Positions 12,689 through 25,894 of a stretch of 52,294 nucleotides of DNA are shown here, in pieces. The stretch's first letter is position 1. Every line of letters begins with the position of its first letter. The notes under the pieces were generated by a model. It worked only from the letters and a program-made list of their open reading frames with translations. It was not told where the DNA came from and did not search any database. The stretch is from a bacterium HR37 (GTDB lineage Bacteria > Desulfobacterota_D > UBA1144 > Nemesobacterales > CSP1-2), in contig BEIN01000018.1 of assembly GCA_002898375.1 (NCBI GenBank), positions 1-52,294 of the forward strand. The letters are read 5' to 3'. Position numbers and translations under genes: made by a program.

Positions 12689-13288
12689 ATGGAGAGGTTT
12701 ATCGTTCCATCCAAACCCATTGTAACGAAGGATAAGAGGCGTGCCCTTAACGGGCATTCCTCTTTTATACTCTGGTTTACCGGGCTTCCGTGTTCTGGTA
12801 AGTCAACGCTTGCAAACACCATGGAAGAGCGTCTCTTTAGGGCCGGTATAAGAACGTATGTACTCGATGGGGATAACATAAGGACAGGGCTTAACAGGGA
12901 CCTTGGTTTCTCCAGAGAAGACAGGGAAGAGAACATAAGAAGAATAGGGGAGGTTGCAAGGCTCTTTGTAGATGCCGGGGTTGTGGTTTTAACCGCTTTT
13001 GTATCCCCCTATAGAAAAGACAGGGAGATGGTAAGGGGGCTTGTTGAAGAGGGTGAGTTCATAGAGGTTTACGTTAAGTGTCCGCTTGAGGTATGTGAGA
13101 GGAGGGATGTAAAAGGGATGTATGAAAAGGCACGAAAGGGAATTATAAAGCAGTTTACGGGTATAGACGACCCATATGAGGAGCCGGAGAATCCTGAGAT
13201 AGTTGTTGAGACGGACAGGCTAAGTGTTGAGCAGTGCGTTGAAGCAATTTGGGATTACCTTAGGAGAAACAAAAAGCTTGTTCTTTAA
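12689..13288 (+). CDS. cysC: Adenylylsulfate (APS) kinase
   Basis: Phosphorylates APS to PAPS, the sulfate donor. The P-loop GLPCSGKST is at residues 32-40, followed by LDGDNIRTGLNRDLGFS and the conserved FVSPYRKDRE and RDVKGMYEKARKG segments. Length 199 aa is normal for a stand-alone CysC. No ATP sulfurylase gene is in the window. Its position between polysaccharide genes suggests that PAPS is for sulfating the polymer, but no sulfotransferase is recognisable here, so this is inference. Confidence 0.92.
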   Translation: MERFIVPSKPIVTKDKRRALNGHSSFILWFTGLPCSGKSTLANTMEERLFRAGIRTYVLDGDNIRTGLNRDLGFSREDREENIRRIGEVARLFVDAGVVVLTAFVSPYRKDREMVRGLVEEGEFIEVYVKCPLEVCERRDVKGMYEKARKGIIKQFTGIDDPYEEPENPEIVVETDRLSVEQCVEAIWDYLRRNKKLVL

Positions 13289-13303
13289 AGGAGGAGAGAA
13301 GAG

Positions 13304-14281
13304 ATGAGAAAAAGGGTTCTTGTTACGGGTGGTGCGGGTTTTATAGGTTCTCATCTGTGTGAGAGGCTTCTTGAAGAGGGTTGTGAGGTAATTTGCGTTG
13401 ATAACTTCTTTACGGGAACAAAAGACAACATAAAACACCTGTTTGGTAACCCCTATTTTGAGTTTATAAGGCATGACATATGCTTTCCACTGTATGTGGA
13501 GGTTGATGAGATTTACAACCTTGCCTGTCCTGCCTCTCCAGTTCACTATCGTTTTGACCCCGTTCAGACAACAAAGGTAAATGTGCTTGGCTCAATAAAC
13601 ATGCTTGGTCTTGCAAAGCGGCTTAAGATAAGGATATTTCAGGCATCCACAAGTGAGGTCTATGGAAACCCAAGTGTTCATCCCCAGCCTGAGTCCTACT
13701 GGGGAAACGTAAACCCCATCGGGCCAAGGGCCTGTTACGATGAGGGTAAAAGGTGTGCAGAAACCCTATTTTTTGACTACCATCGCCAGCACGGAATAGA
13801 CATAAAGGTTGCAAGGATCTTTAACACCTATGGGCCAAGGATGCACCCAAACGATGGACGTGTGGTAAGTAACTTTATAGTTCAGGCCCTCAAAAACGAG
13901 GATATAACGGTATACGGGGATGGCTCCCAAACACGCTCATTCTGCTATGTGGATGACACAGTTGAGGGTATTATCCGAATGATGAATACCCCTCGAGGGT
14001 TTACAGGCCCTGTAAACATAGGTAACCCGGAAGAGGTAACCATTCTTGAGCTTGCAAGGCTAATAATTGATATCTGTGGCTCAAGGTCAAAGGTTGTCTT
14101 TATGCCGCTTCCGGAGGATGACCCTGTAAGGAGAAGACCTGATATAACGCTTGCCGTTAAAAAACTTGGCTGGAAGCCAAGGGTTGGGCTTGAGGCTGGC
14201 CTTAAAAAGACAATAGAGTACTTTGAAAAGGTAATATCTACAACGGGTTATGATTTTAAAAAGGGGATTGACATAGGTTGA
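13304..14281 (+). CDS. UDP-glucuronate decarboxylase (UDP-xylose synthase)
   Basis: NAD-dependent short-chain dehydrogenase-type enzyme that makes UDP-xylose from UDP-glucuronate. GGAGFIGSH (residues 9-17) binds NAD. The family-specific segment [12 protein letters not shown] and catalytic Tyr145/Lys149 in CYDEGKR are present, as is RSFCYVDD. The single-domain length of 325 aa matches Uxs rather than ArnA. It has an AAAGGAGG site and lies 15 bp after cysC in the same operon. Confidence 0.92.
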
Positions 14282-15075: not shown

Positions 15076-16095
15076 ATGGATAGGGGTATAAAGAGGTGTT
15101 TCCTTATCACCTGGTTTGTGTCTTTAGTGTGGGGATGCGGCGGAGTTCAGGCTCCACCTCTTCCCTCTTCTTACGTTGATGCGGGTCGCTCCCAGGAGAT
15201 TAAAGAGCTTAACTCAAAGCTCATTGCACAGGGTCTACACTCTGCTATAAACCCTGCTGACTACCTTATAGGTCCTGGGGATCTGCTTGAGATAAAGGTG
15301 TTTGAATCGGAAAAGCTTACAAGCCTTGTGCGTGTAAGCTCAAGGGGGGAGATAACGCTTCCCCTTCTTGGGAGCGTCCATGTGGATGGGATGACAGCAA
15401 GGGAAACTGAGGTAAAGATAGAGAATCTCCTCAGGGAAGGAGGGTACATAAGGGATCCCCACGTAAGCGTGTTTGTAAAGGAGCACAGAAGCAAGGTGGT
15501 CTCTGTTGTTGGCTATGTAAAGGAGCCCGGTACTTACGAGCTTATTGGAAGACAGACCCTTCTTGATGTACTTGCTGCAGCAAAGGGTCTGGATGATAAG
15601 GCTGGAAGAACGGTTTACCTTACAAGAACCGAGGAGGACGGAAGAAAGCAAGCTTACATAGTTGATATAGAGGAGATGCTTTTAAACGGGAACATGGATA
15701 TAAACCTTGTTCTCAAGCCAGGGGACGTTGTGTATGTTCCCGAGGCTGGAACGGTGTTTGTAGAGGGGGCTGTAAGGAAACCGGGCTCCTTCCAGATAGA
15801 GGAGGGAAGTACAACGGTAAGCCAGAGCATCGCAATGGCTGGTGGGCCCTCTGTCTATGCGGACACAGGAAACGTAAAGCTCATCCGCTATCTGGGTAAC
15901 GGTAAGAGGGAGGTTATAGAGCTTAACCTTGGGGATATTCAAAACGGCAGGGCCGAAGACCCTGTTGTTAAAGACCGCGACACCATAGTGGTTGGCGTAA
16001 ACAACGCAAAGAGGCTCCTTTACGGGCTCCGCCTGAACATGCTATTTGGGCTTATAGGTATAGGATACGACCCACCGGAAAGGTATAGCTACTAG
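15076..16095 (+). CDS. Wza-type polysaccharide export lipoprotein
   Basis: Outer-membrane export channel subunit. The lipobox VWGC places the lipidated Cys at 21. A Poly_export domain follows (YLIGPGDLLEIKVFESEKL...GEITLPLLGSVHVDGMTARE), then two SLBB-type domains beginning near VVGYVKEPGTYELIG and VFVEGAVRKPGSFQIE. It ends GYDPPERYSY without a long amphipathic helix, so pore detail may differ from E. coli Wza (about 380 aa, compared with 339 here). It is directly upstream of the Wzc-type kinase, the normal pairing. Confidence 0.9.
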   Translation: MDRGIKRCFLITWFVSLVWGCGGVQAPPLPSSYVDAGRSQEIKELNSKLIAQGLHSAINPADYLIGPGDLLEIKVFESEKLTSLVRVSSRGEITLPLLGSVHVDGMTARETEVKIENLLREGGYIRDPHVSVFVKEHRSKVVSVVGYVKEPGTYELIGRQTLLDVLAAAKGLDDKAGRTVYLTRTEEDGRKQAYIVDIEEMLLNGNMDINLVLKPGDVVYVPEAGTVFVEGAVRKPGSFQIEEGSTTVSQSIAMAGGPSVYADTGNVKLIRYLGNGKREVIELNLGDIQNGRAEDPVVKDRDTIVVGVNNAKRLLYGLRLNMLFGLIGIGYDPPERYSY

Positions 16096-16110: not shown

Positions 16111-18408
16111 GTGAAGGAAGGTGAAGGCCAAGAAAACAATAAAAGGGCACTCGAAGAGTACAGGGGAAGAGAGTCCTCACTCTCAACCTACTTTCAAAGG
16201 GACTACCACTACGAGGATACCCGTCTTGAGGATGAGCTAAACCTTAAAGACTACCTGGATATCCTCTTAAGGAGAAAGTGGATTGTTGTTTCCTGTCTTT
16301 TGATAACCGTTGTTACAACCACCATTGCATCCCTTGTTATGACAAAGATATACAGGGCAGAGGCGATAATAGAGATAGCACCTGAGAACCCGAAGATAAC
16401 GGCTTTTGAGGAGGTTGTTGAGGTTGAGGCAAAGCAGGATGAGTTCTATGAGACCCAGTACAGGCTTATAAAGAGTAAAACCCTTGCAAAGAGGGTGGTT
16501 GAAGCCCTTGGCCTTGAAAAACATCCCGAGTTCGCACCAGAGGATGAAAAACCGGGCTTTCTTGCCCTTGCCAGAACCACCTTTGCGGAGCTTTTCTCCT
16601 TAGATGGTGATGGGAAGGTGGACCCAAGTGAGAGGGTAAGAGAGGAGCAGGCAAGGGAAGAGAACCTTGTAAGTGCTTTTCTTGACAGGGTTAGTGTTTC
16701 CCCTGAAAGGAAATCAAGGCTTGTTCGTGTAAGCTTTGAGAGTTCAGACCCTGAGCTCTCTGCACGTGCTGTAAACACGCTTATCGATAAGTACATAGAG
16801 TGGGTTCTTGAGAGAAAGATAGAGGCTACAAAGTCAGCAAGGGAGTTTCTTGAAAGGCAGCTAAGGGAGGTAAAGGCAAAGCTTGAGAGGGCTGAGGAGG
16901 AGTTAAGCGCCTTTGCAAAGGGGGCAGATATCGTATCACTTGATGAGAAGCTAAACCTTACCCTAAAGCAGCTTGCCGAGCTAAATGAGGCCCTTTCAAA
17001 GGCTGAAACCGAGAGGCTTTCAAAAGAGGCACTCTACAGGGAGGTTAAACAGGGAAACTACGAGTACCTTCCTCAGGTGATAGGTGACCCCTCCATTCAG
17101 GCACTGAGGGAGGAGTACACCAGGTTAAGGTCACAGTATGACAACCTCTCCGTTATATACGGGCCAAACTATCCGGATGTTAAGCAGATTGGGGCTCAGA
17201 TTCAGAGGGTTGAGAAGGAGATAGGCCGCAGGATAAACGGTATCGTTGAGAGCATAAGGAAGGACTATCAGGCAGCCCTTACCAAGGAGAAGCTTCTTAG
17301 GCAGAGGGCTGAGGAGCAGAAGAGGCTTGTTACGGAGCTTAACGATAAGGCCATACAGTACAGGATACTTGAGAGGGAGGTTGAAACCAACAAATCAATC
17401 TACCAGAGCCTGCTTCAGAGGCTTAAGGAAACGGAGGTAACCTCCGGGATAAAGGTTACAAACATTCAGGTTGTGGACTATGCATCTGTTCCCTTTTTCC
17501 CCTATAGACCCAATATAAAACTAAACGTTCTCCTTGCCCTTGTGCTCGGGCTTGCAGCCGGCTGCTCTCTTGCGTTTGTGCTTGAGCACTTTGACAACAC
17601 CATAAAGGATGAAGAAGACATAAAAAGGCGGTTTTCCTTTCTGCCCTTTCTCGGTGTTGTTCCCCTTGCCGCTGAGGGAGAAACCGAGATTGAGAAGATC
17701 TCCTATAAGAACCCAAAGTCCCTTATCTCTGAGGCCTTTAGGGTTATAAGAACCTCTCTTCTTTACTCCTCTGCAGAGCACCCGCCAAGGTCAATTCTTG
17801 TTACAAGCTCCCAGCCTCTTGAGGGAAAAACAACCTCCGCCTCCAATCTTGCCCTATCCATTATACAGTCAGGGCTTAAGGTAGCTCTTTTGGATGCAGA
17901 CCTTAGAAAGCCAAGACTCCACAAGGTTTTTCTTAACGGAAACACGCCCTTTGGACTTAGCTCCTACCTTGTTGGAAGGATTGAGCTTCAGGGGATTATA
18001 TACCATACGGAGATAGAGGGCCTTGACCTTATACCGGCAGGTCCCATCCCACCAAACCCGGCAGAGCTTCTTGGATCAAACAGGATGAAAGAGCTTGTAG
18101 AGTGTCTTCTTGAGGAATACGACCACGTTATCATAGATGGGCCTCCAGTTATAGGTATTGCCGACTCAAGGCTTCTTTGCCGTATTGTGGATGGGGTCTT
18201 GCTTGTTACAAGCCTTGGTATAACGCAGAGAAGCGCACTTAGGAGCTGTGTTGAGGAGCTCTTAAGGGTAAGGGGAAAGATAGTTGGAACCATAGTAAAC
18301 AGGTTTGAATCCAAAAAGGGCAAGTATGGATATAGCTACTATTACTACTATGGTGGTGAAGAAAACAGGGAAAGAAAAAGGCTTCGTCCCCGCTCTAATC
18401 GTTCTTAG
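16111..18408 (+). CDS. Wzc-type polysaccharide co-polymerase and bacterial tyrosine autokinase
   Basis: Inner-membrane chain-length regulator fused to a BY-kinase (765 aa). TM1 is at about residues 56-76 and TM2 at about 471-492, flanking a long periplasmic coiled-coil region. The cytoplasmic kinase has Walker A PLEGKTTSAS (about 569-578), Walker A' LLDADLRKPRLHK and Walker B HVIIDGPPV. A C-terminal tyrosine cluster (YGYSYYYYYGGEE) is the expected autophosphorylation tail that controls export. Start is GTG 16111. Its 3' end overlaps the next gene. Confidence 0.92.
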   Translation: MKEGEGQENNKRALEEYRGRESSLSTYFQRDYHYEDTRLEDELNLKDYLDILLRRKWIVVSCLLITVVTTTIASLVMTKIYRAEAIIEIAPENPKITAFEEVVEVEAKQDEFYETQYRLIKSKTLAKRVVEALGLEKHPEFAPEDEKPGFLALARTTFAELFSLDGDGKVDPSERVREEQAREENLVSAFLDRVSVSPERKSRLVRVSFESSDPELSARAVNTLIDKYIEWVLERKIEATKSAREFLERQLREVKAKLERAEEELSAFAKGADIVSLDEKLNLTLKQLAELNEALSKAETERLSKEALYREVKQGNYEYLPQVIGDPSIQALREEYTRLRSQYDNLSVIYGPNYPDVKQIGAQIQRVEKEIGRRINGIVESIRKDYQAALTKEKLLRQRAEEQKRLVTELNDKAIQYRILEREVETNKSIYQSLLQRLKETEVTSGIKVTNIQVVDYASVPFFPYRPNIKLNVLLALVLGLAAGCSLAFVLEHFDNTIKDEEDIKRRFSFLPFLGVVPLAAEGETEIEKISYKNPKSLISEAFRVIRTSLLYSSAEHPPRSILVTSSQPLEGKTTSASNLALSIIQSGLKVALLDADLRKPRLHKVFLNGNTPFGLSSYLVGRIELQGIIYHTEIEGLDLIPAGPIPPNPAELLGSNRMKELVECLLEEYDHVIIDGPPVIGIADSRLLCRIVDGVLLVTSLGITQRSALRSCVEELLRVRGKIVGTIVNRFESKKGKYGYSYYYYYGGEENRERKRLRPRSNRS

Positions 18409-19600
18409 CCTGTTTTTCCTCTTTGAGGCACTAAGGCTTGGTGTATCCTCTGTACTCATTGACAGGGGAAGTGAGCGTTCCCTAAGGCTTGGATTTATCC
18501 TTAACCCTTTTGATGCTGAGGCTTATTTGCGTCTTGCACGCACAAGGTACCTTTTTATGACGGGTAGCGATGAGGAGGTGGAGGGGCTTTTTGTTAAATC
18601 CCTAAGGCTAGACCCCCTTTTTTCCTATTCCTGGCTTGGGCTTTCTGAGGTTTTTTCGGATAAAGGGGAGAGGGAAAAGGCTATTTTCTCCTTAAGGAGG
18701 GCTGTAGAGCTTGCTCCCCTCTATATTGCAAACAGGTGGGAGAGTGCCCTTATTGCCCTAAAGGTTGGTGACAGGCAAACGGCTATAGAGAGCTTAAGGG
18801 TTGTTGCAAAAAGCCATCCCCAGAGAAGACTAAGTGTCTTTGATCTTTCCTGGCAGGTCTTTGGCGACCCTGAGCTGATTCTTAACGGGATAGTAAGTGA
18901 TGAGGCACTGCCATCCTACCTTGGCTACCTGATTCAGAAAGACAGGCTAAAAGAGAGCCTCTCTGCCTGGGAAAGGATAGGGAGAAGCGCTATTAGGGTT
19001 CCTGACTCCCTTTCTCTTGGCTACATAGACTTTCTTATCCGTAAGGAAAGGGTCTCATATGCCTACTCCATCTGGAGGGAGAGGTTTGGGGAAGAAAGCG
19101 GCTCCCTTATCTGGAACGGGGGATTTGAAAGGGAGCCTTTGGGAAGGGGTTTTGACTGGCGGATTGGAAGGGTTGATGGTGTAAGAGTTGATTTTGACTG
19201 GGCAAAGAGGGTTGAGGGTAGGAGGTCTCTTAGGTTGGGGTTTGATGGGGAGCATAACGTAGATTTTTACCACATCTACCAGATAGTTCCCGTAGAGCCG
19301 GGGGCGGAGTATGAGTTTTCCTCAGCCCTTTCCTCAGAGGGGATTACAACGAGAAACGGTCTTGGCTGGGAGATTGTCTGTTATCCAAGGGGAGGGAGCC
19401 TTGGGGTTACAGAGCCTTTAGTGGGTACAAGCCCTTGGCATAGGGTTTGGCTTTCTTTTAAAACACCCCCGGAGTGTAACTCCATTATGGTAAGGCTCAG
19501 GCGAAAGAAAAGCTTTAAGCTAGATAGGTTTATCTCCGGAACCCTCTGGGTGGATGATGTAAGGTTAAAGCAGGTTAGCTATGATAACCATAAACTCTAA
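18350..19600 (+). CDS. Membrane-anchored TPR protein with C-terminal carbohydrate-binding-like domain
   Basis: An N-terminal transmembrane segment (FVPALIVLSLFFLFEAL) leads to periplasmic TPR-like helices (AYLRLARTRYLF, SYSWLGLSEVFSDKGEREKAIFSLRRAVELAPLY). The last 140 residues form a beta-rich module with NGGFEREPLGRGFDWRI, SLRLGFDG and GTLWVDDVRL, the pattern of CBM4/9 or galactose-binding-like domains. It probably scaffolds polymer assembly. The start is uncertain: the frame is open from TTG 18305, but ATG 18350 leaves a normal membrane anchor. Either way it overlaps the kinase gene by 59 bp or more. Confidence 0.7.
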   Translation: MVVKKTGKEKGFVPALIVLSLFFLFEALRLGVSSVLIDRGSERSLRLGFILNPFDAEAYLRLARTRYLFMTGSDEEVEGLFVKSLRLDPLFSYSWLGLSEVFSDKGEREKAIFSLRRAVELAPLYIANRWESALIALKVGDRQTAIESLRVVAKSHPQRRLSVFDLSWQVFGDPELILNGIVSDEALPSYLGYLIQKDRLKESLSAWERIGRSAIRVPDSLSLGYIDFLIRKERVSYAYSIWRERFGEESGSLIWNGGFEREPLGRGFDWRIGRVDGVRVDFDWAKRVEGRRSLRLGFDGEHNVDFYHIYQIVPVEPGAEYEFSSALSSEGITTRNGLGWEIVCYPRGGSLGVTEPLVGTSPWHRVWLSFKTPPECNSIMVRLRRKKSFKLDRFISGTLWVDDVRLKQVSYDNHKL

Positions 19601-21269
19601 GACGCTTGAGAAGGTAGTTCTTAAGCTTGTTGAATCCACCGACCTTAGGAAGCTCTCAAAGGAGTTTCTAAAGGACAGGGTCTTTTTCTACTCGGTGCTA
19701 AAGGACATTTCGCGGGGAAAGGAGTCTCCAAACTACCGTGTAATAAGAAAGATAGCAAGGAAAAAGAAGATAAAAGAGGACTTTATAGTTGACCAGGCAA
19801 GGTCTATAATTTCCTATCTGGCCCCAAAGGAGCCAGTAGAAGACTACTACAGGGTTCTTAACGTTTCCCCATCTGCAACCCCCGAGGAGATAAGAAGGAG
19901 CTGGCTAAGCCTTGTTAAGGAGTATCACCCAGACAAGATGGGTTCTTATGGGCTTGATATCACAAAGAAGCTAAACGAGGCCTATGAGGTTCTTGGAAAC
20001 CCCCAAAGGAGGGCAGAGTACGATGCAAAGCGTATCCCCGAGTATCCTGTGGTGGTAAGGGACTTTGGGGTGGGTAAAGGGGTTTCCCTCTTTGTATCCG
20101 TTGCCATTGTCTTTTTGGTTGCGGTTTCAGTCTATATGTGGCGCTTTTCTCCCTCCCACGTCCAGGCAAAAAGGGAGGTTGCGGTAAAAAAGGAGGTAAA
20201 GGAGCCGGTTTTGGCCTTAAAAACCCCATCTCCACCTGAGCCGGAGGAGGTAAAGGTATCCAGAAGAGTTGAAACCTCTACTGTAAGTGAAGCCGTAAAA
20301 GAGAAAGAGCCTCTAAAACCGAAAGAGGTTGTAAGGGAGGAGAAAACGGTAGAGGAGCCTCAGGAAAAGGAGAGGGTGGTTGCTAGAATAATCGAGGAGG
20401 AAAAGAGACAGGTAGAGACTTCCGGAAGCGAAAACATAAGGGTTTTTCCGGCTGTTAGTGTGGAGAGGAAAGAGGAGGTTAAACCCGCTACAGAGGAGAA
20501 TAAAAAAGAGGAGTTTGTAACCAAAGAGGCCAAAATAGGCGGTAAGAGAAGCTATACGGTTAAGCAGGGCGATAGCCTCTGGCTTATAGCAAGGAGGTTT
20601 AACGTCTCGGTTGATGACATTGTAAGGGCAAATGGGCTTAAGGATTTACGTCTTGATGTGGGAGACGTCCTTACGATACCAGAGGAATCTAAGGAAAAGG
20701 AAGTTACTTTGGAGGCAAAAAGGGAGGGAAAAAGGACTGAGGAAAAGAAGCCAGAAAGGAAAGAGGTTTTGCTTTTAGGTAAGAAAACTGGAGAGAATAA
20801 GGCTAGGGAAATCGGAGAGGCCAGGAGAAAACAGCCCGCTCTTTTAGAGAGAAAAAAAGAAGAAGATAGCGCATCACCTGTTGCAAAGGCATCTTTTCTT
20901 CCCGATACCTCTTCTATCTACTCCTTTTTCTCAGAGTACGTATCTGCCTACAAAAGCAGAGACTTTAAGAGGTTTATTGAGCTTTTTACCCCTGATGCAA
21001 GGGAAAACGGTGTTTCTCTAAGGGAGAGGGCATCCTCGTATAGAAGAAACTTCTCCTCGCTTGAGATTGTCTCTTACAACCTGGATATAAAGAGGGTAAA
21101 CCTTTCAGGGGAGACTGCAAGCGTAAGTGGGGACTTTGCGGTTACCTTCAGGAAGGCAAACGAAAGCAGGTTAAGGCACTCTAGTGGAACCATAGACTGG
21201 GTTCTTCTCTGGCACAAAACAGGCTGGAGGGTAAAGGAGATAAGCTACAGCGTAAGGGATGTAAGATGA
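19581..21269 (+). CDS. DnaJ domain - transmembrane - LysM - NTF2-like fusion protein
   Basis: A 562-aa protein with an unusual domain order. Residues 1-80 are basic and unrecognised. A J domain follows at 86-150 (YYRVLNVSPSATPEEIRRSW, with HPD at 116-118). A single transmembrane helix lies at 167-187. A Lys/Glu/Pro-rich linker runs to about 322. LysM lies at 325-367 (YTVKQGDSLWLIARRFNVSV). An NTF2/SnoaL-like module fills 445-560. Topology would place the J domain in the cytoplasm and LysM/NTF2 in the periplasm. The gene overlaps both neighbours, so it is firmly in the polysaccharide operon. A role coupling DnaK to envelope or polymer assembly is inference. Confidence 0.8.
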   Translation: MITINSKTLEKVVLKLVESTDLRKLSKEFLKDRVFFYSVLKDISRGKESPNYRVIRKIARKKKIKEDFIVDQARSIISYLAPKEPVEDYYRVLNVSPSATPEEIRRSWLSLVKEYHPDKMGSYGLDITKKLNEAYEVLGNPQRRAEYDAKRIPEYPVVVRDFGVGKGVSLFVSVAIVFLVAVSVYMWRFSPSHVQAKREVAVKKEVKEPVLALKTPSPPEPEEVKVSRRVETSTVSEAVKEKEPLKPKEVVREEKTVEEPQEKERVVARIIEEEKRQVETSGSENIRVFPAVSVERKEEVKPATEENKKEEFVTKEAKIGGKRSYTVKQGDSLWLIARRFNVSVDDIVRANGLKDLRLDVGDVLTIPEESKEKEVTLEAKREGKRTEEKKPERKEVLLLGKKTGENKAREIGEARRKQPALLERKKEEDSASPVAKASFLPDTSSIYSFFSEYVSAYKSRDFKRFIELFTPDARENGVSLRERASSYRRNFSSLEIVSYNLDIKRVNLSGETASVSGDFAVTFRKANESRLRHSSGTIDWVLLWHKTGWRVKEISYSVRDVR

Positions 21270-21757
21270 GCAGGGAGTGGTATGCGGTTTATACGGTTGT
21301 AAGACACGAAAAGGTTGTAAACGAGGCCCTTACCCAGAAGGGGGTTGAAACATTCCTTCCGCTAAGGAGTGTTCTAAGCAGGTGGAAGGATAGGAAAAAG
21401 AGGCTGCAGCTTCCGCTCTTTCCCGGATACCTCTTTGTAAATATACCCATTGAGGAAAGGTTTGATGTTCTAAACACGCGGGGTGTTGTTCGTATACTCG
21501 GGGTAAACGGAACCCCGGTACCTGTTCCAGTTGAGCAGATAGATGGGATAAGAAGGCTTCTTCAAAGTGGGCTTGAATACGACCCCTATCCCTACCTTTT
21601 TGAGGGAAGGGAGGTTGTAGTTGTAAGGGGTCCCCTTGAGGGCATAAGGGGAAAGATAGTTGGAAGAAGGGGAGACTTCAGACTTGTTTTGTCTGTTGAT
21701 CTCATAAGAAGAAGTGTATCCGTTGAGGTGGATGCTTGTGATGTAGAGCCGATTTGA
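21266..21757 (+). CDS. NusG paralogue (RfaH/UpxY/LoaP-type antiterminator)
   Basis: A specialised transcription elongation factor. The NGN domain (residues 5-100) has the EWYAVYTVVRHEKVV and FPGYLFVNIPIEERFDVLNTRGVVRILG motifs. A KOW domain follows (GREVVVVRGPLEGIRGKIVGRRGDFRLVLSVDLIRRSVSVEV). At 163 aa it is shorter than housekeeping NusG and sits inside the polysaccharide operon, overlapping the DnaJ-fusion gene by 4 bp. Such paralogues normally allow read-through of the long operon that encodes them. Confidence 0.9.
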   Translation: MSREWYAVYTVVRHEKVVNEALTQKGVETFLPLRSVLSRWKDRKKRLQLPLFPGYLFVNIPIEERFDVLNTRGVVRILGVNGTPVPVPVEQIDGIRRLLQSGLEYDPYPYLFEGREVVVVRGPLEGIRGKIVGRRGDFRLVLSVDLIRRSVSVEVDACDVEPI

Positions 21758-21859
21758 TTGCACTTGTTGAGTGTAGCGTCTGGAGTTATTTTTCTAACGC
21801 AGAAAATGCAGTGGGTGCAGTTAACCCCGATGTAACTGAGGTGGCGAAGCTATGCCATC
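21758..21859 (+). promoter_or_regulatory. Structured leader between the NusG paralogue and the initiating transferase
   Basis: The 94-bp gap has no convincing gene. It contains GTAGCGT, the core of the E. coli RfaH ops element, followed by a T-rich stretch. A hairpin CAGTTA (21818-21823)/TAACTG (21833-21838) comes next. A second hairpin pairs GGTGGC (21840-21845) with GCCATC (21854-21859), which would cover the GAGGTGG ribosome binding site and part of the ATG at 21852. A role in NusG-paralogue recruitment or translation control is inferred. Confidence 0.4.
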
Positions 21860-23357
21860 ACTACGGGATACAAAGGGCAGAGAGGCAACAGAAGAGATGG
21901 TTCCCAAAGCCAGGTACGAGGACTTACCGTATTACCTTGAGAGGGGAAAAAGCTCTATAGAGCTTCTCTACATTGCACTTGATGCCCTTCTTATTGCAGT
22001 AAGCGGTGTCTTTTCGTTTTACCTTCGTTTCTCCCCGAATAAGAAGGAGGCCATTTCCTCATTTACCCTTCCTGCTTTTCCCTATCATACCTTCCTTCCC
22101 ACGTATGCGGGGCTTATTCTCATCTACATTGTTCTCATACTCCTTAGTTTTAAGAACTACGGGCTTTATAGCCTCCGTAACCGTGGTTTTAAGAGGGATG
22201 AGGTTTTCCTTGTTGTAAAGGGGGTTTCTTTTGCAACCCTAATACTTATGGTCTTTATGTATCTTTCCAAGATACACGCCTCAAGGCTTGTTGTGCTTAC
22301 CATGTGGGGACTAAGTGTGTTTGCGCTAAGCGGGTGGAGGTATATAAACCGTAGCGTGGTGGAGGGAAGGCTGGCAAACGGGGATGGCTCAAGAAACGTT
22401 GTTATTGTGGGGGCAGGAAGGGTTGGCAGAAGGGTTGCAGGGATCCTTAAGAGCAACAGGCATCTTGGGTTTAACGTAAAGGGGTTTCTTGATGACTATA
22501 AAACAGGGGAGGGTGTGCTTGGCAGGATAGAGAACCTTCCTGATGTTATAAAAAAGCACTTTGTAGATGAGGTTATAATTACGATTCCCTCTGAGAGGGA
22601 GGTTGTAAAGTGGGTAATACTTGAGGCAAAAAAGGCAAGAACAGGGATTAAGATTGTCCCCGAGCTATTTGATGGGCTTTTGTTTCAGGGTTCACCTTCA
22701 ATTGAGGTTCTTGGAAACATTCCTGTTATGAACGTATACCGTGAGCCCATACCGGAGCTTGGCCTCTTTGCTAAAAGGGTTATTGACATAGTGGGGTCGG
22801 TTTTTGGCATTCTAGTTTCTTTTCCCCTTATGCTTGCGATCTCTATTGCCATTAAAATTGACTCTCCAGATGGCCCGGTAATATACCGTTCCCGCCGTGT
22901 TGGGAGAAAGGGGAAGGAGTTTATATGCTACAAGTTTCGCACAATGGTTCCTGGTGCAGATGCCCTTAAGGAAAAGCTTTGGCACCTAAACGAGAGAAAG
23001 GGGCCTTTCTTTAAGATTACAAACGACCCAAGGGTTACAAGGGTTGGAAGGTTTCTTCGTAGATATAACCTAGATGAGCTTCCCCAGTTCTTTAACGTCC
23101 TTAAAGGGGATATGAGCCTTGTTGGACCAAGGCCTCATCCTGTGGATGACTTTAACCGCTACAGCCTTGACCACTACAGAAGGCTTGATGTAAAGCCCGG
23201 GATGACAAGCCTCTGGGCGGTGGAGGCTCAGGATGACCCTTCATTTGAGAGAAACCTTGAGCTTGACCTCTACTACATTGAAAACTGGAGCCTTCTTCTT
23301 GATATTAAAATCCTTCTAAGGACTATACCCACTGTGCTAAAGGGGATTGGGAGATAA
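21852..23357 (+). CDS. Undecaprenyl-phosphate phosphoglycosyltransferase (WbaP/WcaJ family)
   Basis: Starts the repeat unit by moving a sugar-1-phosphate onto undecaprenyl phosphate. Four N-terminal transmembrane segments (about residues 40-165) precede a Rossmann-like CoA-binding domain ([18 protein letters not shown]). The catalytic Bac_transf domain begins near residue 305 with [23 protein letters not shown] and holds [21 protein letters not shown] and [22 protein letters not shown]. Length 501 aa is typical of long polytopic PGTs. It is the last gene before the repeat/toxin island. Confidence 0.92.
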
Positions 23358-23380
23358 CACGAAACCGTGAAGGTGTAATA

Positions 23381-23456
23381 AGGTGAAATAAACGCAACAA
23401 ACGCAAATAACACAATCAACGCAAGTAATGCACACACAATGAACGCAAATAACATT
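23381..23456. repeat. Degenerate AACGCAAATAA repeat tract
   Basis: Low-complexity tract of AACGCAA(A/C/G)TAA-like units directly after the initiating transferase gene. A 20-base stretch, CAATCAACGCAAGTAATGCA (23413-23432), recurs with two changes at 24311-24330 in the same orientation. The two copies bracket the HicBA genes and a broken S23 gene. Confidence 0.7.
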
Positions 23457-23570
23457 GAAAATAGAAACCTTCCCCTTTATCCTTAAAGTATAGAGAGAGG
23501 TTTATGTTGAATAGAATAATCGAGGTTGCCAGGTTTAGTTGATGAGGTGATCACCATATATTTTACAAAG

Positions 23571-23683
23571 ATGGAATTAAGGTAGAGAAGTTTGAAGAGT
23601 TAGATTGCTGGCAGGAAGCCAGAAAGATCGTTAATAGTGTTTATAGAGTTTGTTGGGTTGATGGGTCGAAAAAAGATTATTAG
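23571..23683 (+). pseudogene. Relic of a four-helix-bundle (S23/IVS-type) gene, N-terminal part
   Basis: The frame ending at TAG 23681-23683 reads VEKFEELDCWQEARKIVNSVY and then diverges. This is the conserved N-terminal helix of the S23 family (compare ERFEDIESWKEARELVREIY of the intact gene at 24611). The ATG at 23571 is out of frame with it, so both a 5' frameshift and a 3' truncation have occurred. It sits between the AACGCAA tract and hicB. Confidence 0.65.
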
Positions 23684-23723
23684 TTTATATAGATAATAAT
23701 AGTATAATTAAAAAGGAGGTTTT

Positions 23724-23942
23724 ATGAGGTTTAAAGTGGTGATAACCTATGACCCTGAGTATAAAGGGTATGTTGTTGATGTTCCAGAGCTTTTTGGTTG
23801 TATGAGTCAGGGTAAGACTCTTGATGAAGCCTTGACTAACATCAAAGATGCTATTAAAGGATGGTTAGAGGTAGAAAAAAAGCATGGCAGATTAGAGGAA
23901 TTTGAAGAAAAGGAAGTCTTTCTTGGCGAGGTAACAGTTTAA
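23724..23942 (+). CDS. hicB: HicB-family antitoxin
   Basis: A 72-aa protein with the partial RNase H-like HicB fold: FKVVITYDPEYKGYVVDVPELFGCMSQGKTLDEALTNIKDAIKGWL-type sequence. It lacks a separate C-terminal DNA-binding domain, as is usual in short HicBs. It has an AAAGGAGG site and is followed 5 bp later by hicA, so antitoxin precedes toxin. Confidence 0.88.
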   Translation: MRFKVVITYDPEYKGYVVDVPELFGCMSQGKTLDEALTNIKDAIKGWLEVEKKHGRLEEFEEKEVFLGEVTV

Positions 23943-23947
23943 GTCAA

Positions 23948-24184
23948 GTGGGTAAACTCTCTCATATTTCAGGTAAAGAAGCAGTAAAGATTTTTCAGAA
24001 ATTTGGTTATATTCTTGACCATCAAACGGGAAGCCATATGATACTTTACCATGATTCACGACCTACCCTATCCATTCCGAACCATAAAGAATTAGCGCCA
24101 GGATTATTACGAGGGCTGATCAGGAAAAGCGGGCTCACAGTGGAGGAGTTTTTAAAAGCTAAAAGAGGGATTAAAAAGAAATAG
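23948..24184 (+). CDS. hicA: HicA-family mRNA interferase toxin
   Basis: A 78-aa double-stranded-RNA-binding-fold toxin. The conserved catalytic His is in QTGSHMIL, followed by SIPNHKELAPGLLRGLIRKSGLTVEEF, the typical HicA C-terminus. Start is GTG 23948. Paired with the upstream hicB. Present as a complete module. Confidence 0.88.
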   Translation: MGKLSHISGKEAVKIFQKFGYILDHQTGSHMILYHDSRPTLSIPNHKELAPGLLRGLIRKSGLTVEEFLKAKRGIKKK

Positions 24185-24268
24185 TCAATCAAATAGTTGA
24201 TGGGATAAAGTAAATTACTCGCATTAAACCTTTCTTGCATATTTATAAACCAGGCAAATCAGGAAAAT

Positions 24269-24332
24269 ATGAAAATAAAAAAATTCGAAGATCTTGACTG
24301 CCCTCAAACCCAATCAACGCAAATAACGCATA
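24269..24332 (+). pseudogene. Second S23 relic: start of a gene fused to an AACGCAAATAACGC tract
   Basis: ATG 24269, with AGGAAA upstream, encodes MKIKKFEDLDC, the standard S23 N-terminus. It then runs directly into the repeat tract at 24311-24330 and stops at the TAG there. Everything after residue 11 is lost. The junction is a gene-to-repeat fusion. Confidence 0.65.
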
Positions 24333-24437
24333 GTAAAAACTTACAAGAAACACCAGGAAAAGATAAATGTTAAGACATTGGGTTTAATGGAATTTGTAGT
24401 AAAGGAGGGAGAGGAAGAGGTAGAGAAATTTTTTTAA
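24333..24437 (+). pseudogene. Relic of a PIN-domain toxin gene, C-terminal end only
   Basis: The frame ending at TAA 24435-24437 reads VKTYKKHQEKINVKTLGLMEF followed by an acidic tail. It matches the end of the intact PIN protein at 38836-39312 (VKIYKKHHKKINVKILSLMEF) nearly residue for residue. It begins immediately after the repeat tract that truncates the S23 relic, so a deletion joined the two. The 170 bp after it contain nothing I can assign. Confidence 0.65.
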
Positions 24438-24540
24438 TCCTCGGATAATACGATAGTATTTGAACTTTACATCTTTGCCAAAAGGTTGGCTTAGCTTTAC
24501 CATCCACTCAAGTATTTTTCTAGAGTTAACGAAAGGGCTT

Positions 24541-25096
24541 CAAAGTTTAACGTTCAAAGTCAAAGTTAAACGTTTGATGTTAAGGGTTTGACGTTGGTGG
24601 AAGGTGGGATATGGGAATAGAGAGGTTTGAGGATATAGAGTCATGGAAAGAGGCAAGGGAGCTTGTTAGAGAGATTTACGAGGTGTTTAAAAACTTAAGG
24701 GATTATGGTTTTAAGGATCAGATTCAGAGGGCAGCAGTATCAATTATGTCCAATATAGCAGAGGGATTTGATAGGGGAACTAATAAAGAGTTTATTCAGT
24801 TTTTAGTTGTTGCAAGGGGCTCTTTATCTGAGGTAAGAAGCTTGCTATATACTGCACTGGATCTAAATTACATTGATGAAAGGGCATTTAGCGAGCTGTT
24901 TCAAAGGTGTATAAAAATTGCAAATCTTATAAACGGTTTCATCAGATACCTAAAATCCTCACACAAAAACTAAACCCCAATCTCTGAACCTCAAACCTTG
25001 AACATTGAACCTTGAACATAGAACATTGAACGTTGAACCTTGAACTTTGAACTTCGAACATTGAACATTGAACATTGAACTTCGAACGTTAAACCT
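24541..25096 (+). mobile_element. S23 element 1: four-helix-bundle gene between inverted heptamer tracts
   Basis: The left tract (about 24541-24598) runs in heptamers beginning GTT (GTTCAAA, GTTAAAC, GTTTGAT, GTTTGAC). The right tract (about 24975-25096) runs in heptamers ending AAC (ATTGAAC, CTTGAAC, GTTGAAC, TTCGAAC). They are reverse complements of one another, so the transcript can fold with the gene in the loop. The right tract starts with CCCCAATCTC just after the stop codon. This layout is that of 23S rRNA intervening sequences, but here it is intergenic. Confidence 0.6.
24611..24973 (+). CDS. Four-helix-bundle protein of the 23S rRNA intervening-sequence (S23) family
   Basis: A 120-aa all-helical protein. 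It carries the family pattern FEDIESWKEARELVREIY, FKDQIQRAAVSIMSNIAEGFDRGTNKEFIQFL and ARGSLSEVRSLLYTALDL. Members are best known as the ORF inside 23S rRNA IVS and as relatives of the Avd accessory protein of diversity-generating retroelements. They are basic and form oligomers that can bind nucleic acid. No reverse transcriptase or template repeat is nearby, so a DGR role is not supported. Start ATG 24611 with AAGGTGG upstream. Confidence 0.88.
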   Translation: MGIERFEDIESWKEARELVREIYEVFKNLRDYGFKDQIQRAAVSIMSNIAEGFDRGTNKEFIQFLVVARGSLSEVRSLLYTALDLNYIDERAFSELFQRCIKIANLINGFIRYLKSSHKN

Positions 25097-25155
25097 TACC
25101 CGATTAACTCAAGGTGCTATAGTTGTGATATTATATAAAATAAAAGGGGGGAAAT

Positions 25156-25380
25156 ATGAAGTATAAAGAACGAATAATTTCAAACCCTGGGATAATGTTA
25201 GGAAAGCCAATTATAAAGGGGACCAGGATAACAGTTGAACTCATTTTAAAAAAGCTTTCAGAGGGGATGGAAATCGAAGAAATTCTAGAGGCATATCCAG
25301 AGCTTACAAAAGAAGATATTCTTGCATGTCTTGAGTATTCTGCAGAGGTTATCTCTAGGGAGGAGATGATTGTCCCTTAA
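25156..25380 (+). CDS. DUF433 antitoxin
   Basis: A 74-aa winged-helix-like protein with the DUF433 pattern RIISNPGIMLGKPIIKGTRITVELILKKLSEGMEIEEILEAYPELTKEDI. It should bind DNA and neutralise the product of the next gene, which starts 11 bp before this one ends. AAAGGGGGG site upstream. The module lies between two direct TTGAAC tracts. Confidence 0.85.
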   Translation: MKYKERIISNPGIMLGKPIIKGTRITVELILKKLSEGMEIEEILEAYPELTKEDILACLEYSAEVISREEMIVP

Positions 25381-25723
25381 AATTGTAGCAGATGAAAATG
25401 TTGATTTTAGGATAGTAAAGAGACTAAAAAAGCAAGGTTTTTGCATAATATCAATTCTTGAGAGATTTAAGGGTATAACGGATGAAGAGGTTTTAAAAAT
25501 AGCAATTTCTGAAAGTGCTATGTTATTAACAGAAGATAAGGATTTTGGAGAGTGGGTATTTTCTCATGGTAAAAGGATAGGAGTTATATTATTGAGGTAT
25601 AAGTCTGAAGAAGTTTATGAAATAATGGATAGCTTGATCGAAGTAGTTAAGAAATACGGGGAGGAATTAAAGAATAAATTTACAGTGATTACCTCTAAAA
25701 AAATTAGGATAAGAACTATGTAA
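25370..25723 (+). CDS. DUF5615 PIN-like toxin
   Basis: A 117-aa PIN-like (Mut7-C-related) nuclease, the usual partner of DUF433. The acidic active-site pattern is visible as IVADENVDFRIVKRLKKQGF, KGITDEEVLKIA and LLTEDKDFGEWVF. Start is TTG 25370, preceded by AGGGAGGAG inside the antitoxin gene, so synthesis is coupled. The 100 bp after it hold a 30-codon frame (25727-25819) with a 12-bp tandem duplication, GATTGTTTCATA at 25745 and 25757, of unclear origin. Confidence 0.82.
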   Translation: MSLKIVADENVDFRIVKRLKKQGFCIISILERFKGITDEEVLKIAISESAMLLTEDKDFGEWVFSHGKRIGVILLRYKSEEVYEIMDSLIEVVKKYGEELKNKFTVITSKKIRIRTM

Positions 25724-25823
25724 AAAATGGGAAAGATAGACGGAGATTGTTTCATAGATTGTTTCATAAGGGTAAAAGAAGCCATTGAAAATGGCAAAAA
25801 CTCAACCAAAAACAACTAGTTCT

Positions 25824-25894
25824 CCCCAACCTCAAACGTTGAACCTAGAACCTTGAACATTGAACTTTGAACTTCGAACATTGAACCTTGAACT
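25824..25894 (+). repeat. TTGAAC heptamer tract (second copy)
   Basis: Begins CCCCAACCTC (25824-25833), then heptamers GTTGAAC, CTTGAAC, ATTGAAC, TTTGAAC, TTCGAAC. Same orientation and family as the right tract of S23 element 1, about 850 bp upstream. The tract runs into the first codons of the flippase gene, whose TTG start at 25888 is part of a repeat unit. Confidence 0.85.

Follow-up and report, generated by a model that had tools for sequence, protein, structure and literature searches.

J domains recruit Hsp70 and, by means of the HPD motif, stimulate its ATPase. Hsp70 systems affect how much polysaccharide is produced in E. coli, in Myxococcus and in cyanobacteria. In E. coli, overproduction of DjlA raises capsule synthesis, which requires the J domain, DnaK and GrpE (PMC11709261). 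In Nostoc, DnaK1 and DnaJ3 are needed for normal hormogonium polysaccharide (PMC9239167), and in Myxococcus two Hsp70s, StkA and SglK, control EPS with opposite effects (PMC4319316).

The stretch of DNA analyzed here (the window; 52,294 nucleotides) belongs to a 2.4 Mb assembly of the little-known phylum Dadabacteria, from which 58 genomes were compared. It contains an open reading frame at 19581-21269 (+), with an ATG start, that encodes a J protein of 562 aa with the following parts:

19581..19838 (+): conserved helical domain at the N-terminus, residues 1-86; without a Pfam family, seen in the alignment of relatives
19839..20027 (+): J domain, residues 87-149, with the HPD at 116-118; Pfam PF00226, 1.9e-16
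20079..20141 (+): single transmembrane (TM) helix, residues about 167-187; Kyte-Doolittle
20148..20546 (+): charged low-complexity linker, residues 190-322, presumed periplasmic; 17.5% mean identity
20553..20681 (+): LysM domain, residues 325-367; Pfam PF01476, 5.2e-16
20685..20891 (+): second charged linker, residues 369-437; 15% mean identity
20892..21266 (+): C-terminal NTF2-like/SnoaL-like domain, residues 438-562, with an ENG motif; AlphaFold2 and Foldseek

Domain analysis agrees with each part that the initial annotation had named, i.e., a J domain with an intact HPD, one membrane helix followed by a charged linker, a LysM domain and an NTF2-like module. The J segment, for which that annotation had set a J-domain profile as the check, passes it with 60.3 bits against a cut-off of 27.8 (residues 88-148), and the HPD, Y90, W108, N132, A134 and Y135 are invariant in the 14 aligned Dadabacteria relatives. 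The LysM match reaches 58.8 bits, far above the cut-off, and residues 161-190 form the sole hydrophobic segment (Kyte-Doolittle maximum 2.57, with no other above 1.6). Matches of the whole protein to the SnoaL/DUF4440 families at 440-558 fall slightly below the Pfam cut-off, while the C-terminal domain scanned alone narrowly passes those of DUF4440, SnoaL_3 and SnoaL_4. AlphaFold2 models residues 432-562 as an NTF2 fold (pLDDT 91.7, pTM 0.83), and a Foldseek search of this model against the PDB returns 510 matches at E<=0.001 (best 3hx8, 3.9e-8) and assigns it to the ketosteroid-isomerase/SnoaL/CaMKII-hub group. The parts list was nevertheless incomplete, the helical domain at residues 1-86 having been overlooked. 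Mean identity of the 14 Dadabacteria members to the window protein is 45% in this N-domain, 57% in the J domain, 40% in LysM and 42% in the NTF2-like domain, but 15-18% in the linkers, the first of which also varies greatly in length. Because the domains are conserved while the linkers are not, a chance architecture is excluded.

The protein has a J domain with an HPD above the profile cut-off, and zinc-finger and DnaJ C-terminal domains have no Pfam match in it or in ten relatives, which places it in class C and not in A or B. Like DjlA, it is a membrane-anchored J protein with a single TM. However, DjlA runs in the order TM, TerB and C-terminal J domain, has no LysM or NTF2-like domain and works via the Rcs pathway, whereas here the J domain precedes the TM and the DjlA model (NCBIfam NF006948) gives 28.8 bits against a cut-off of 162. 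The cyanobacterial DnaK1/DnaJ3 are a dedicated Hsp70/J pair for a secreted polysaccharide, a likeness of role, and differ in being coupled to type IV pili; StkA and SglK differ in being Hsp70s themselves. TcaA and YvbJ are envelope proteins with NTF2-like domains, to which profile matches are weak and below cut-off; we know of no J domain in these families. We found no described DnaJ-LysM protein from polysaccharide operons in the open-access literature, and no LysM or NTF2-like domain outside this J-protein family among about 200 J-bearing open reading frames of the fetched loci (many of them overlapping copies); the rarity of the DnaJ-LysM combination is judged from these and from the genomes searched. 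The precedents of DjlA, DnaK1/DnaJ3 and StkA/SglK make a role of this J protein in polysaccharide production credible. We favor, at a probability of roughly 60%, a membrane-anchored class C J co-chaperone dedicated to cell-surface polysaccharide production, which would bring DnaK to the assembly machine.

The N-domain and the order of the parts bear on a different reading, in which the J fold would serve protein contacts independently of DnaK, as perhaps in ARC6/Ftn2, or in which the N-domain would make the protein a scaffold akin to RodZ (HTH, TM). ARC6, Ftn2 and ZipN have a J-like domain, one TM and a C-terminal domain across the membrane, and the N-domain shows a weak HTH resemblance (HTH_3 matches in 3 of 13 members, best E 0.012). 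However, these proteins act in cell or plastid division and carry no LysM, and the ARC6-type C-terminal intermembrane domain has no Pfam match up to E=1 in 12 members, though the folds may be distantly related. An XRE-HTH identity for the N-domain was not accepted, as the hhalign value of 7.8% was equalled by 1 of 40 shuffles and is not significant. The profile of this domain, whose invariant residues in the alignment of relatives are M1, E10, D21, D42, I43, S49, N51 and A59, has no significant match in the PDB, and with the N-domain plus J domain the best 50 Foldseek matches are all J domains. In addition, a pure scaffold could dispense with the HPD and the J core, yet both are invariant, and we consider a DnaK-independent scaffold improbable.

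The co-chaperone reading draws on the genomic setting. The gene order in the window is Wza, Wzc, TPR, J gene, UpxY and glycosylphosphotransferase, followed by flippase-like, methyltransferase, glycosyltransferase and Wzy genes; the genes flanking the J gene are:

15076..16095 (+): Wza-type polysaccharide export protein; PF02563, 6.8e-23
16111..18408 (+): Wzc-type chain-length/BY-kinase protein; Wzz, GNVR and AAA_31, TIGR01007 above cut-off
18305..19600 (+): TPR protein with a C-terminal region that reads as jelly-roll-like in sequence; weak TPR matches
21266..21757 (+): UpxY/RfaH-type NusG paralog; NCBIfam NF033644, 6.5e-36, above cut-off
21852..23357 (+): polyprenyl glycosylphosphotransferase, starting the polymer; TIGR03025, 1e-121

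The J gene overlaps the TPR gene upstream by 20 nt and the UpxY gene downstream by 4 nt (ATGA). It follows the TPR gene in nine Dadabacteria loci (the window, L036, L037, L039, L040, L041, L042, L051 and L052). In eight of the nine, i.e., all whose contig reaches that far, wza and wzc lie upstream (L051 begins inside the TPR gene). In the nine loci UpxY comes next after the J gene except in L042, where the contig ends, and L037, where no homolog was found.

Those close relatives that bear a name are assigned to Candidatus Dadabacteria or are bins with the label Deltaproteobacteria, Desulfobacterota or Thermodesulfobacteriota, almost all of them metagenome assemblies. A search with the N-domain finds 16 of the 58 phylum genomes and none of about 329 others; a search with the C-terminal domain adds a fragment in G027, bringing the total to 17 of 58, and also matches one genome of another phylum, G225. 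The G225 protein (535 aa) consists of N-domain, J domain with HPD, TM, a Pro/Gln-rich linker and NTF2-like domain, without LysM, and its gene lies in the order Wza, Wzc, TPR, J, with a divergent Wzy-type gene. A second genome of this 9-genome phylum, G363, encodes N-domain, J domain and TM in a protein cut by the contig end; here the TPR and J genes overlap again, and their adjacency is thus kept in two phyla. No relative of the J protein was found in viral contigs, and plasmid matches cover the J domain only. An NTF2 match in G097 proved to be an unrelated lipoprotein-like protein, and a match in G389 looks like an ordinary DnaJ near GrpE.

LysM is present in the window protein, but Pfam finds none in L039, L052 and L218, and it is weak in L041 and doubled in L044; a LysM call in L052 from the family's own profile was rejected as circular, Pfam finding none there. 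Since LysM is absent from 2 of the 14 aligned Dadabacteria copies and from the complete out-of-phylum copy while the other parts are kept, the family core is N-domain, J domain, TM and NTF2-like domain, with LysM an accessory that deserves less weight than the initial annotation gave it.

Across several families the gene is tied to polysaccharide genes, and the initial annotation's own proviso that it might prove unlinked to them does not hold. In family f3 the J gene lies outside the Wza-Wzc operon, in a sulfate-activation/carbamoyltransferase/sugar cluster, where it is followed by a 105-aa open reading frame, a carbamoyltransferase, sometimes a GDP-mannose-dehydratase-like gene, an APS kinase, an epimerase and an aldehyde-dehydrogenase-like gene; in G029 one copy has stayed at the original site. 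Both the J and the UpxY gene are missing from four paralogous Wza-Wzc-TPR-Wzy operons, and at three sites of the same phylum (L188, L192 and L201) the TPR gene adjoins UpxY without a J gene. In a tree of the TPR proteins, many of whose forks are weak, these three sites form one clade, and the data fit one event of loss or relocation within the J-bearing operons. Since the relocated f3 copies stand apart from the Wza-Wzc operon, and some Wza-Wzc operons have no J gene, the J gene is a non-obligatory part of export, yet one that remains among glycan genes after moving. The window itself has genes for an APS kinase and a nucleotide-sugar epimerase ahead of wza (12689-14281); their identity to the counterparts next to the relocated f3 J gene is 66-82%, which hints at a sulfated polymer.

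In G031 the J copy (L053:3995-4881) is decaying: two short frames are left of it, a UpxY fragment of 87 aa comes next, and both stand before the carbamoyltransferase/APS-kinase cluster. The joint presence of J and UpxY remnants in this relocated cluster, together with the ATGA overlap of the J gene with a UpxY-type antiterminator and the DjlA precedent, is consistent with an envelope sensor, in which the periplasmic LysM/NTF2 part would read the state of the wall or glycan and the J-DnaK arm would alter the activity of a regulator in the cytoplasm, conceivably UpxY, making operon expression follow the envelope in a DjlA/Rcs-like manner. We hold this to be unlikely, if less so than the scaffold, as J and UpxY are apart in most f3 genomes and the neighborhood of the G225 copy yielded no UpxY homolog.

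Comparison of the J gene with a close Wzc homolog in the 58 genomes gives 13 with both, 4 with J only, 3 with Wzc only and 38 with neither (p=3e-7; by genus p=0.0015; both statistics ignore phylogeny). This co-occurrence may reflect genome size and shared ancestry, many J-free genomes being small. The G004 contig breaks off within the TPR gene, after which the J gene would be expected. The genome of the window has two full-length Hsp70 genes (G000:C1:280974-282758 and C1:288650-290431), the shorter of which lies just upstream of a dnaJ. A second Hsp70 is present in 13 of 17 genomes with the J gene versus 4 of 41 others (p=1e-6, by genus p=0.03, uncorrected for ancestry) and, being commoner with the J gene, may be its dedicated partner. 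These distributions also bear on whether the protein is a housekeeping membrane chaperone, placed in the operon by accident of position. It has no known client, and as the genomes are related, the linkage could be partly inherited and not functional. However, a gene missing from 41 of 58 phylum genomes is not housekeeping, and its position in glycan clusters is conserved over several families and a second phylum; we regard an accident of position as very improbable.

Returning to the dedicated co-chaperone, we note that the J profile match with its HPD, the single TM with a basic N-terminal part (residues 1-165, net charge +9), the overlaps on both sides, the nine TPR-J loci, the TPR-J overlap in the second phylum, the Wzc co-occurrence and the retention of the f3 J gene in another glycan-modification cluster all argue for it. 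The J-less Wza-Wzc operons, the three TPR-UpxY sites without J and the broken G031 copy argue against it, as does the charge bias flanking the TM, which is weak, the window protein slightly favoring the opposite orientation (+1 against +2); local charge points weakly to an N-in, C-out topology. With that topology and this order of domains, DnaK would be placed on the cytoplasmic side of the export machine, and the LysM and NTF2-like domains in the periplasm. On the favored reading, (I) the N-terminal and J domains, on the cytoplasmic side, would recruit DnaK, or the genome's second Hsp70, to an inner-membrane assembly and export machine of Wzc-type kinase, TPR protein and polymerase; (II) the long charged linker would span the periplasm to the wall, where LysM would in most species hold the periplasmic part, while the NTF2-like domain would bind a ligand or dimerize, this part sensing or anchoring; and (III) DnaK would remodel or mature a membrane client and polymer assembly would thereby be tuned. 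The bridge from DnaK to the wall put forward in the initial annotation is plausible. More tentatively, and with somewhat less than even odds, the proteins could form a trans-envelope co-chaperone family not described before, built of N-domain, J, TM and NTF2 with LysM as an option, that couples DnaK activity to Wza/Wzc-type polysaccharide assembly; its wall-bound periplasmic part would determine when the chaperone acts on the export machine. The arrangement suggests that polymer export may be tied to the chaperone system; if true, a J protein within an export operon, reaching from cytoplasm to wall, would provide a direct molecular link and a testable set of clients.

Several minor observations concern the loci. 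In G003 the J gene is split over two contigs (L042:17495-19519 and L043:10378-11784), which we take as an assembly matter, and one of the gene ends continues into unrelated Cys-rich sequence, the contig end probably being chimeric. Within the window, an ARAGORN tRNA-Ser call at 16672-16760 falls inside the Wzc-type coding sequence and is probably false, and the roughly 2.5 kb that separate the glycosylphosphotransferase from the flippase-like gene (23358-25887) hold a single open reading frame, of 120 aa. A separate 666-aa protein of the same genome (L004:178-2178, G000:C2) has a mid-chain J domain and a TPR-like C-terminal part. Lastly, the first ~120 residues of a minus-strand protein at 1180-2625 of the window resemble several proteins whose genes adjoin the Wza-Wzc operons of relatives (L036, L193, L194 and L195).
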